IMG/VR virus record: IMGVR_UViG_3300038824_000011
Location: 1-28,416 of that record
Length of the DNA stretch: 28,416 bases
Origin: a virus
Reading direction: 5' to 3' (one strand)
In this document: positions 1,438-15,520 of the stretch, one piece after another
How positions within the stretch are numbered: position 1 is the first letter of the stretch
Layout of the letters: every line of letters begins with the position of its first letter
Made by a program: the position numbers and the translations under genes
Notes under the pieces: model-generated
Told to the model about the DNA's origin: nothing
Seen by the model: the letters and a program-made list of their open reading frames with translations, nothing else
Databases searched by the model: none

Positions 1438-2036
1438 TGGTTTTTCGAAAAGATGGTTTTTCGAAAGCTCGTCGTTTCGTGCCGTCGACGTCTCGAGCCT
1501 TTGGCCCGTTGATCGGCCGACGTTCCGAGCCATCGTCGTCTCGGCCCTTCGGGCCGTCGGCTCTTCGACCGATCGACGCGTCGTTGTTTCGACCCTTCGA
1601 GCCTTCGAAGCGTCGGCCTGTCGACGACCCGAACGGTCGACGCGTCGACCGTTCGGGATGTCGACCCATCGGCCGTTCGAGCTGTCGACCTTTTGACCGT
1701 TCGACCTCTCGATCAGTCGACCCGTCGAACGATCGGCTGATCGGCGCATCGACCGATCGACACGTCGTCGTTTAGAGCTTTCGAACCTTCGAACGTTGGA
1801 GCCGTCGTCGTTCCGACCTTTCGGGCAATCGACCTCCCGATCCGTCGAGCCGTCGGCCTTTCGCCCCCTCGAACGCTTGAAGGGTCATCGCTTCGTGCTT
1901 TTGAGATGTCGTGGCTTCGAGAAGACGAAGTTTCGGGGGTTCGACGTTTCGTTTAATCGGGCGCTCGTGCGGCCTAAAGCTCGACGTTACGAGGCCACGA
2001 GGTTCCGAGCTTTCGAAGCGTCGAACAGGCGAAATG
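1438..2036. repeat. degenerate 8-bp TCG-anchored tandem array
   Basis: About 590 bp without a plausible gene. From 1461 to 2028 there are 71 consecutive 8-bp units in one unbroken phase. 53 begin with TCG and 17 of the other 18 differ from TCG by one base. The consensus is TCGACCNT, but nearly every unit differs at positions 4-8 and few are repeated. The left edge carries a 16-bp duplication (TGGTTTTTCGAAA at 1438 and 1454) in the same phase. Eight is not a multiple of three, so the anchor changes reading frame at every unit and cannot be a coding constraint. Frames in the array translate to spurious 8-residue repeats such as RPFDRSTS. SalI-type GTCGAC sites are concentrated between 1484 and 1721. 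Its function is unknown. Confidence 0.93.
1628..1657. repeat. 30-bp perfect palindrome inside the octamer array
   Basis: Four consecutive units form a perfect inverted repeat centred between 1642 and 1643. Each arm is 15 bases, beginning CCCGAACGGTCG. It could extrude as a cruciform, form an RNA hairpin, or bind a dimeric protein. TCGA is itself self-complementary, so shorter dyads are expected in this array, but this one is much longer than the rest. Confidence 0.85.
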
Positions 2037-7549: not shown

Positions 7550-7807
7550 ATGTCCGCACCCAGCACCGTCCGGCTGAGCGATCAGGCGCGCGAGCATCAG
7601 GGTCGCCGCGCGGGACACACCGTCCCGGTCTACCTGGCAATCGACCGCCAGACGGCGAAGTATCTCCAGCGGAAGGCGCAGTATCACCAGCGCCTGGCCG
7701 AGCGGCACGAGACGACGCCCGGCGTGATCGAGCACGCGCACCGCACGAACAAGACGATCGCGCAGGCGCGCGAGGACATTCACGGGAAGCGCGCCGAGGC
7801 GGCGTGA
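7550..7807 (+). CDS. small basic hypothetical protein (85 aa)
   Basis: The first rightward gene after the repressor. AGGAGG lies six bases before the ATG at 7550, so the start is clear. It is basic and His-rich: YLAIDRQTAKYLQRKAQYHQRLAERHE, then a helix TIAQAREDIHGKRAEA. It occupies the Cro/CII position by location, but I cannot see a convincing helix-turn-helix. The stop codon lies inside a GCGTGACAC nonamer that recurs elsewhere in the window. Confidence 0.75.
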   Translation: MSAPSTVRLSDQAREHQGRRAGHTVPVYLAIDRQTAKYLQRKAQYHQRLAERHETTPGVIEHAHRTNKTIAQAREDIHGKRAEAA

Positions 7808-12203: not shown

Positions 12204-12241
12204 TTTGCCTCTTCGTTCCAGGTTTGCCTCTTCGTTCCAGG
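12204..12241. repeat. perfect 19-bp tandem duplication over a ribosome binding site
   Basis: 12204-12222 and 12223-12241 are identical (TTTGCCTCTTCGTTCCAGG on the plus strand). Read leftward each carries GAAGAGGCAAA, so the gene at 12203 has two copies of its initiation region. Only the proximal one sits next to the ATG. Confidence 0.9.
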
Positions 12242-12594: not shown

Positions 12595-13704
12595 TCAGAC
12601 CAGGTCCTCGAGCGCGAAGGTAGGATCACCGGATCCGTCCTCGGGCTGGGATTTGATAGCCATGAGCAGGTGCGGTTCGGTACGGAACCAGACGAACGAA
12701 TCGACCGCCAGCGCGCCGATGTTCTTCTTGAACGGGCCCGCGTCGCGGTCTTCGAAGGCCGTGACGTAGGCCAGGTGCTCCGGGCTGTAGCCGGCGTCGG
12801 TGCCCATCTTCCGGAGCGCCGCACGCCGGTTCTCGTTGATCGGCCCGTCGGACGCGACGACCTCGACGAACACGATCATGGTGTCCTTCGAGCCGATGTC
12901 CGACAAGATCATGTCCGGGAGCAGCTGCTTCTGGTCGATGTTGAGCCCGAGCTGCTTCGCCAGCTCGTCGTCCTGGTACGACACCTTCTGGCCACTCTCG
13001 CTGATCCAGACGACGACCGGCTCGCGCAGGTACCGGGGCGCGAAGTCCTCTACAACGCCCTTGGCGATCTCCGAGCTCGGGCCCGCGTCCAGCTGCCGGA
13101 CCTCGCCAGTTGGGAACGACACCGAAACCTTTGTGGACGCGGCCGCGGCGCTCTTCTTCTTCAGCAGCGTCCGCGACAGCGCGCCCGTCGACAGGTTCTT
13201 CTGCCGCCAGTCGTCGATTGCCGCATCGAGCGCGCTGCCCTGGAGGTTCGGGTCGAACAGGAGCGCAAAGGCGTGCTGGAGGGCGTAGCGGCCTTTGCTT
13301 GAGGTCGTGGGGACGCCCGGACGGGTCACGACGGCGCCGATCTGGACAAGGCCCTCTTTCAGCGTCTCGTCCCGGATCGGCTCCCTCGTATTATCAGCGT
13401 ACCAGCGCTCACCCGTCGGCTTGAAGCCGGGCTTGGCGCCCTCGACGGCGTAGTCGTGCCGGGACTTGTCGTCGGTCTTCCCCGACTGCTCCTCGGTCAT
13501 CAGGTAGACGTGCTTGGGCGCGAGCCAGATGCCCGTGCCCTCGACCGCGTCGATGTACAGGAACGTGTAGACCGTGCGCGCCGCGATCTCGCGCGTGAGG
13601 TAACCCTGCTGTGGTGTGGCCGGCGGGAAGATGTCCTGGAGGCGGTCGTGGATCTGCTGGATGGTCGGGAGTTGCGGTAGCGCCGGTGAGAACCCGTCAG
13701 GCAT
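12595..13704 (-). CDS. type II restriction endonuclease, BsuBI/PstI family
   Basis: 369 aa from the ATG at 13704; GAGGGA lies seven bases upstream and the start overlaps the end of the methyltransferase by 8 bp. The BsuBI/PstI catalytic region is visible in the C-terminal third: QLLPDMILSDIG, then MIVFVEVVASDGPINENRRAALRKM, with the acidic residues of PD and FVEVV and the family's DGP. The N-terminal 200 residues resemble the helical part of these enzymes (TVYTFLYIDAVEG...). PstI and BsuBI cut CTGCAG, but specificity here cannot be assumed. It is slightly longer than PstI (326 aa). It forms a restriction-modification pair with the upstream gene. Confidence 0.88.
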   Translation of the reverse strand: MPDGFSPALPQLPTIQQIHDRLQDIFPPATPQQGYLTREIAARTVYTFLYIDAVEGTGIWLAPKHVYLMTEEQSGKTDDKSRHDYAVEGAKPGFKPTGERWYADNTREPIRDETLKEGLVQIGAVVTRPGVPTTSSKGRYALQHAFALLFDPNLQGSALDAAIDDWRQKNLSTGALSRTLLKKKSAAAASTKVSVSFPTGEVRQLDAGPSSEIAKGVVEDFAPRYLREPVVVWISESGQKVSYQDDELAKQLGLNIDQKQLLPDMILSDIGSKDTMIVFVEVVASDGPINENRRAALRKMGTDAGYSPEHLAYVTAFEDRDAGPFKKNIGALAVDSFVWFRTEPHLLMAIKSQPEDGSGDPTFALEDLV

Positions 13705-15520
13705 GCATCGATTCCCTCTCTTTCCCCTCGAACGCTGCGGATACCGCAGCGTCGATCTCATGCCAAGCGGCATTCTGGCGCACGAGCTCGCGCACGGCGT
13801 GCACGGAGGGAGAGAGAGGGTCGGGGAGGGGCAGCGACTCGATCTCGTATGCTGAAACGGCGACAGATCCGCTGATGCAACGGAACGCGGCGTCGGCGTA
13901 GCTGGAGTTCAGGAACGCCGACACGACGCCGGCCTCCACCTCAAGGTCACCGTCATTTGTCGGGCGCACCATATTCAAATGGTTCTCGACCACGGCGCCG
14001 CCGTGCTCGTCCAGGAACGATTGCGGCAGCTCGGCGGCCACCAGCCGCCGCGGCTGTTCTTTCGCGGTCGTGCGCTGGACTAGCACGCAGGGTTTCGTCG
14101 TCAGCAGCCAGTCGTCTCCGTCGCGGAGCTCGCAAAACGGGGCGTGGCGCGGTTTCGACGCTCGAAACTTGAAGCCCCGGTCGGGCAGGACGGCTTCGGA
14201 CCAGATCAGCGGGTAGGTGTTCTGCTTGTCGTTCGTGTGCCGCAGTTGAGCTTTGTGCCGGTTCCAGACCAGCGGGCCCGTCGAGACGCGGTAGCCCCAG
14301 TCGTCCAGACGGTGTTTGCACTGAGCTAGGCGCTGGATGAGACGCTTCTGCCGCTTGTCCCGTGGCAGGATCCACGGGTCGATGCCCTGAGATGGTAGGG
14401 GGACGGAGGCGATGCGCACGCGCTCGGCGCTCGTGTCCTCGCGCGCCATCAGCATGTTCGTCTGGACCGCCTGACCGTCGGCGCCGCGGCGGTAGGTGGC
14501 CAGAAGCGTCTCCTGCAGTACCTCGTCGAACACGCCTTTGCGGTCGACCACAAAGTCGATCTCGGTGGGCGGCGCCTCGCGCGCCAGCAGGCCGCGCAGG
14601 TTGTTGTAGTACAGGCCGCCTAGGAAGCTCGTGGGCGTCACGTACGCCACGACCCCGTCCATGGGCTCGACGAGCCGGAGGGCGAGGTCCGTGAACAGGC
14701 CGTACAGGTTGGCGTGCCCATAGAGGCTGCGCGCGTAGACGCCGCGGGACAGAGGAGACAGCTTCGTCCGGCCGTAGGGCGGGTTGCCGATGACCAGGTC
14801 GTACCGCTCGGTATGGTCGTAACGATCCAAGGAATCGGTCGTTTCGACCAGGTCGTAGAGGCGCTTGCCGGTGGCCACGACGTGCTCCAGCACGGCGACC
14901 TCAAGGCACACGCCGGCCATCCATGCGCCGAACGGGTCGACGTCCCATCCGGCAACCTGAGCGCGGATCGAATCGATGACCTCGTGCGAGTGCTCCCATT
15001 CCAGCGCAATCCGGATCGCGACAGGCGCGAGAAACGCGCCGCCGCCGCAAGCCGGGTCCAACACCCTCGCTGACGCCCAGTCCACGCTGGCGTCTTCGGT
15101 CATCTCGATGAGTCGGCGAGAGACGACCGGCGGCGTGTAGTAGATGCCGCGGCCGGCACGGTATTCGCGGGGCAGGACAGCCGTATAGATCGAGCCCAGA
15201 AGATACCCCGCTTCCAGGCGCTCGACGCGGGCCGCTTCGGCCCCGATGCGATCGGCGAGCTGCTCGGCGTCGTCGTCGAGTTCGTCGTCTTCGATCGGGA
15301 AGCCTGGCGCCAGTGGCAGATCGTGCCGCACGCGGCGCCGCATCGCGTACCAATACGCGCTCATCATGCGCGCCCCGAACGCGTCGGCGAAGCTCATGCC
15401 GGCCTCCGCGGCGACGCCGCGGGCCAGCGTGCGCGCTTCGTCGCGAAGCGCACGCAGTTCTTGGACCGGCGTGCCGGCGCCGGCAACGCGGGACGCGTCT
15501 CGCGGTATCGGACGGCTCAC
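13697..15520 (-). CDS. type II N6-adenine DNA methyltransferase
   Basis: 607 aa from a GTG at 15520 with GGAGG six bases upstream. Motifs: GIYYTP (125-130), motif I DPACGGGAFL (155-164, AdoMet binding) and motif IV NPPYG (246-250, catalysis of N6-adenine methylation). The region VVAYVTPTSFLGGLYYNNLRGLL follows. The C-terminal half carries a TaqI/Eco57I-like specificity part (GYRVSTGPLVWNRHKAQLR). It would protect phage or host DNA from the partner endonuclease. Translation order is methylase first, then nuclease, with overlapping ends, as expected for a safe pair. Divergent from the replication gene across an operator-like region. Confidence 0.92.
   Translation of the reverse strand: MSRPIPRDASRVAGAGTPVQELRALRDEARTLARGVAAEAGMSFADAFGARMMSAYWYAMRRRVRHDLPLAPGFPIEDDELDDDAEQLADRIGAEAARVERLEAGYLLGSIYTAVLPREYRAGRGIYYTPPVVSRRLIEMTEDASVDWASARVLDPACGGGAFLAPVAIRIALEWEHSHEVIDSIRAQVAGWDVDPFGAWMAGVCLEVAVLEHVVATGKRLYDLVETTDSLDRYDHTERYDLVIGNPPYGRTKLSPLSRGVYARSLYGHANLYGLFTDLALRLVEPMDGVVAYVTPTSFLGGLYYNNLRGLLAREAPPTEIDFVVDRKGVFDEVLQETLLATYRRGADGQAVQTNMLMAREDTSAERVRIASVPLPSQGIDPWILPRDKRQKRLIQRLAQCKHRLDDWGYRVSTGPLVWNRHKAQLRHTNDKQNTYPLIWSEAVLPDRGFKFRASKPRHAPFCELRDGDDWLLTTKPCVLVQRTTAKEQPRRLVAAELPQSFLDEHGGAVVENHLNMVRPTNDGDLEVEAGVVSAFLNSSYADAAFRCISGSVAVSAYEIESLPLPDPLSPSVHAVRELVRQNAAWHEIDAAVSAAFEGKERESMHA

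Follow-up and report, generated by a model that had tools for sequence, protein, structure and literature searches.

The question raised by this locus is what a 568-bp run of octamers, which share a short fixed core and little else, does in a temperate phage. The analysed window (28,416 nucleotides) makes up the initial 28.4 kb of an IMG/VR virus record of 52,839 bases, from a temperate, tailed phage of ~66% GC. The phage encodes RecT, a YqaJ/RecE-type exonuclease, a repressor-like gene and a gpA-type terminase, with a tyrosine integrase at the far end of the 52.8-kb record. Two minus-strand genes, 959-1279 and 2044-2226, leave a non-coding gap of 764 bp between them, and the array fills it. 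By analogy with known centromeres, we give about even chances to the reading that it is a contiguous platform of exceptional length for a ribbon-helix-helix (RHH) type DNA-binding protein, and perhaps an orphan centromere.

From 1461 to 2028, the array extends through 71 contiguous octamers with the consensus TCGA followed by four unconstrained bases, and the phase is kept with zero indels over 568 bp, as the earlier note had described. Exact TCG opens 53 of the 71 units and 70 lie within one base of it, the only unit two bases off being CCTAAAGC at 1973. Identity at lag 8, the autocorrelation check proposed earlier, is 0.538 within 1461-2028 compared with 0.27 for the whole window, and reaches 0.533 and 0.557 at lags 16 and 24. 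The anchor is far above chance, since such windows elsewhere in the phage hold at most 9 in-phase TCG per 568 bp and shuffles (n=2000) at most 7 in one phase. Of the anatomy first proposed, a TCG anchor with five variable positions, the anchor stands, but the unit is more aptly described as TCGA with four free positions. The anchor columns show T at 86%, C at 90%, G at 97% and A at 65%, with a divergence from background of 1.76/1.10/1.41/1.02 bits; the four spacer columns, near background composition, diverge by 0.09/0.23/0.14/0.25 bits.

Conservation is uneven along the array. Exact TCG is found in 100% of units in 1533-1628, in 89% in 1629-1772 and in 56-64% at both ends, the best conserved core being the 30 units of 1533-1772 (28/30 exact). 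On the left, two 16-bp near-repeats, AAGAGCTGGTTTTTCG and AAAAGATGGTTTTTCG (1432-1463, 88% identical), lead into the array and hold one more in-phase unit, TCGAAAAG at 1445. At the right edge, an inverted repeat, CAGGC-GAAAT-GCCTG (2025-2039), read directly and paired in the minus-strand fold, adjoins the stop of the 2044-2226 gene, and no terminator is called there. A possible operator, two perfect copies of ACGCGCGGTC (1319-1339), lies in the stretch that separates the array from the 959-1279 gene. The phage has no second array, and a regulon of smaller operators was rejected on that ground.

The units behave as independent draws from a single profile, which speaks against the information-bearing variable array once suggested. 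In total, 63 of 71 are distinct, where column shuffles predict 64.5, and the similarity of neighbours (lag 1) is 4.30 of 8 compared with 4.29 in permuted order. A simple tandem repeat or microsatellite has alike units, with neighbours the most alike, and the array has neither property; neighbours as alike as random pairs bear out the remark that it is unlike a simple slipped microsatellite. A protein is equally unable to explain the anchor, as had been argued, since stops interrupt all six frames across the array, 1-4 in each, and identity does not differ among lags 8, 16 and 24. Because the spacers are free while the anchor is kept and no indel has entered, the sequence suggests selection on both anchor and spacing. 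In IMG/VR, neither TerL, capsid and YqaJ nor the 959-1279 protein retrieves a kin phage, RecT finds two distant matches only (31% and 30%), and blastn of the array gives zero matches in plasmids and one chance 28-bp match in phages.

Several features of the record bear on the kind of element that carries the array. Both ends of the record are stop codons and end repeats of at least 14 bp are absent, so the record was possibly trimmed at gene boundaries. The element may be mobilizable or a hybrid, as suggested by a MobA/MobL-type relaxase near the integrase end (L124:1814-2938, record 49814-50938). The lysin and the relaxase region flank an IS110-family transposase gene (L123:15701-16813); the matches of this transposase and those of TerL are too distant to indicate the phage host. 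The window also contains a perfect 19-bp tandem duplication, TTTGCCTCTTCGTTCCAGG, at 12204-12241, and a phage-borne BsuBI/PstI-family restriction endonuclease with an Eco57I/N6-type methylase (12595-13773 and 13697-15520). A link between this restriction-modification pair and the array was rejected: the phage shows no avoidance of TCGA outside the array (435 observed, 335 expected), and nothing stands out for CTGCAG.

In layout, the best match is the centromere of partition systems that combine ParA with an RHH ParB, without assignment of the array to parS. RHH-type parS sites comprise at least four contiguous direct repeats of 7-8 bp with a conserved core, and the array presents 71 of 8 bp with the core TCGA. 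When IMG/VR was scanned for TCG repeated every 8 bp, many simple repeats came up, together with contigs that proved to be cluster A mycobacteriophages, in which the octamer arrays are located around parA and an Arc-like ParB. In RedRock, a member of this group, ParB is reported to recognise two parS loci, both built from eight 8-bp motifs in direct repeat (PMC7157519). The ParB of LadyBird scores as RHH_1, and weakly as Arc. Pooled over six records, the mycobacteriophage parS octamers carry 1.62/1.38/1.26/1.20 bits in TCGA and 0.26/0.55/0.60/0.24 bits in the spacer, a profile that agrees with that of the phage array in its conserved TCGA and loose spacer.

A similar arrangement recurs at modules of ParA and a PF20605 (RHH) protein. 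In contig L005, from a second viral family, 11 variable TCG octamers lie at the junction of ParA and a 102-aa PF20605 RHH protein, four more stand directly before parA, and plasmid homologues of this RHH ParB are absent at 1e-5. In a plasmid-sized Sphingomonas contig of 73.5 kb, a TCGA array of period 8 precedes parA, and a second TCG array of the same period, 1.5 kb past the RHH parB, has matching units (TCGACCTG TCGGTCAT TCGACAAT TCGACCTG TCGACATG TCGGACAG). Anchored arrays of period 8 precede parA in L286, L292, L293, L294, L288, L296 and L297, and in L163, with a particular anchor in each; one Sphingomonas genome (G002) holds four such modules. The anchor is TCG(A) in L286/L163 and L005 and, read by eye, TGCYG in L294, TGTGCG in L292 and CCACA in L296. 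Over the 320 bp that precede parA, period 8 ranks first among the periodicities in 7/8 modules (in one of the seven it is level with period 7 at two decimals), compared with 25/112 control windows drawn from the same loci (Fisher P 0.0004), and a shuffle test is passed by 6/8 modules and 21/112 controls, in a small sample with six of the eight modules from two genomes. As a side result, period-8 anchored arrays are a mark of ParA/RHH modules, with anchors particular to the module, and so provide a simple sequence test to find centromeres and predict incompatibility. Near its ParA/RHH module, L294 also carries ~16 perfect copies of TGCTGGCG (1082-1210); they stand next to the degenerate array that precedes parA and may be a second centromere array of recent origin.

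Of the functions floated in the earlier note, architecture supports two, a platform read by a protein in 8-bp steps and an incompatibility or partition site: the cluster A parS has the same period and anchor, and period-8 anchored arrays occur at ParA/RHH modules in other bacteria and in another viral contig. The structured RNA and the information-bearing array are unsupported.

If the array is an RHH platform, one RHH dimer would sit on each TCGA palindrome, and the dimers would be packed side by side every 8 bp. Such packing would preserve anchor and spacing but let the 4-bp spacers drift freely, and the whole would function like the parS centromere of ParA/RHH-ParB partition systems. RHH-ParB complexes require contiguous repeats and do not spread, and in pSM19035 at least four contiguous, gap-free repeats are needed for ParA activation (PMC9499535); such a requirement would account for the kept phase and contiguity of the array. 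Since RHH ParBs do not spread along DNA, the length of the array would set the dimer load, up to ~70 compared with roughly 5-11 repeats in the compared arrays. Such a platform would be several times longer than those arrays, and its 71 natural units would be a dense record of the bases that the protein reads (TCGA) and ignores. That an RHH protein binds here, and to what effect, we infer from these analogies. The ligand may come from the host or a plasmid, belong to the phage as a divergent protein, or be encoded beyond the ends of the record. The phage would most likely use the array as an orphan centromere or incompatibility site, served in trans by the ParA/RHH-ParB of the host or of a plasmid resident in the same cell, or else by genes that lie immediately beyond the record.

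Several observations weigh against an RHH platform. A parS module contains a parA gene with an RHH gene alongside, and neither is detected within the record. Profile and sequence searches of the 52.8 kb find nothing for parA, either with AAA_31 (E<=1) or with LadyBird ParA, and nothing for the centromere-binding protein with RHH_1, PF20605 or LadyBird ParB, although a divergent RHH could escape them. For this reason the array is not filed as the parS of a ParABS system. The protein at the Cro position (7550-7807) was considered as an RHH and rejected, with a poor model (pTM 0.30) and no fold match. The tyrosine integrase means that the phage need not be partitioned. The anchor shared with the mycobacteriophages may be coincidence, given that other modules use other anchors; many TCG octamer arrays in Prevotella-type genomes lie away from known ParA/RHH modules; and the searched collections contain no kin phage in which anchor and spacing are kept while spacers change.

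We regard as doubtful, though worth stating, a broader pair of ideas taken jointly. The first pictures the array as a giant RHH centromere of an integrating phage, an orphan that lacks both parA and parB and in which array length replaces spreading; with it the phage would capture or disrupt the partition machinery of a co-resident plasmid. The second is that anchored-variable 8-bp arrays form a readable signature of ParA/RHH centromeres, the anchor reporting the specificity of ParB.

The array could instead be a non-functional or selfish octamer satellite of the Prevotella-type kind, aged to its commonest bases, which we consider unlikely. The Prevotella-type arrays are the best argument for caution about the function of the phage array. 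TCG(A) octamer arrays are common between genes in three such genomes (G010, G011 and G012), with 162-503 overlapping matches per genome and 0 for the reversed-pattern control; there and in L127-L245, the arrays are mostly of 6-30 units and often intergenic. A 400-kb sample of G010, scanned with the anchor left free, yields period-8 variable arrays that correspond to the TTCGA phase. No role for these arrays was found in the literature searched. Besides this abundance, the ends of the phage array are more decayed than its middle, as in satellites homogenised by unequal exchange. However, neutral decay is expected to be equal in the eight columns, and the information of anchor and spacer differs several-fold; the complete lack of indels across 568 bp likewise argues against a satellite. 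Of the other TCG octamer arrays taken from genomes, 57 reach 14 units or more; the neighbour-similarity z exceeds 2 in 54% of these, and their median spacer information is 4.6 bits (somewhat inflated by small arrays) compared with 1.1 in the phage array, which, unlike most genome arrays, shows neither neighbour similarity nor a deficit of distinct units. In Pseudomonadota, 1/398 genomes has a TCG octamer array, a simple repeat, and the other 397 have none, which would tell against a satellite if the phage host belongs to this phylum.

The flanking genes supply a second alternative, a platform for a winged-helix protein, which we hold to be distinctly unlikely. The minus-strand gene at 959-1279 encodes a 106-aa predicted winged-helix DNA-binding protein (core pLDDT 80-94 in the structure model), the main candidate for an alternative ligand; the minus-strand gene at 2044-2226 encodes an acidic 60-aa protein to which the profile search assigns no family. 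Such a protein would assemble head to tail into a filament along direct repeats close to attP, in the manner of excisionases, BldC and Cox, with a role in excision or in repression. The sites read by BldC are direct repeats of 9 bp that contain a 4-base core (PMC5859096), filaments are also formed by excisionases of the RdfS/Cox type (PMC11963761), and all share with the array a multimer, here hypothetical, on direct repeats of variable number. A Bacteroidales integrative element (L268:8538-8640, L106) also places ~12 TCGA+NNNN octamers between an HTH_17 gene and two integrases; the C-terminus of a DUF3408 gene near that array is RHH-like by eye. The known filaments nevertheless step at 9-10 bp, with a consensus that is weak, AT-rich or lacking, whereas the array steps at 8 bp. 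The TCGA palindrome fits a symmetric dimer better than a head-to-tail monomer, and 568 bp far exceeds excisionase sites. The excisionase label of the 959-1279 protein goes back to a weak HTH_17 hint (E 0.26), and the protein has no significant Pfam or fold match.

A transcribed array, acting by its structure as a non-coding RNA or an mRNA spacer, is very improbable. Both strands fold very stably (z -7.7 and -8.4), but randomly ordered units fold equally well: the energies are -276.5 compared with -268.4 +/- 8.5 and -268.4 compared with -265.5 +/- 5.9 for the same units permuted. The specific RNA structure proposed earlier was accordingly rejected, the z of about -8 being gone against unit-permuted controls. 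A large palindrome at 1620-1665 likewise proved no more than is seen in permuted arrays. The array has no Rfam match, and a scan restricted to sigma-70 sites shows no promoter-like site. The array is not a gene, and it is no recent microsatellite or specific RNA either. A writing mechanism that adds random-spacer units, for example a diversity-generating reverse transcriptase, would suit the independent, random spacers, fixed anchor and exact spacing but is hardly credible, as the record has no reverse transcriptase domain, the spacer composition is genome-like without a mutagenic signature, and ordinary substitutions fall in the anchor too, more commonly at the array ends.

The putative RHH platform can be compared with several known systems. 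The parS-L and parS-R of RedRock, LadyBird, 20ES and Mulciber are, like the array, phage-borne, non-coding 8-bp direct repeats with a TCGA core and a variable 4-bp spacer; they differ in having 6-12 units per site, adjoining parA/parB, in phages without integrase, whereas the array has 71 units, undetected parA/parB and an integrase. The centromere regions of the Sphingomonas and L005 ParA/PF20605 (Antitox_RHH) modules are likewise anchored-variable with period 8, with TCG(A) in L286/L163 and L005, but contain 5-11 units sited at parA or parB, and other modules use other anchors. The parS of pSM19035, bound by the RHH ParB-omega, resembles the array in its contiguity, which in pSM19035 is required, its protein being non-spreading (PMC9499535); it consists of 7-bp heptads, with few repeats per site and dedicated parA/parB. 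SGI1, an integrating element without its own parAB, carries parS sites that use the parABS of IncC, for self-stabilisation and plasmid expulsion (PMC10954446); in contrast to the array, these are inverted-repeat sites in two copies for an HTH ParB, with no octamer array. In conclusion, a site without its genes would indicate the use of another replicon's segregation machinery, for which SGI1 and IncC set a precedent with a different type of parS.
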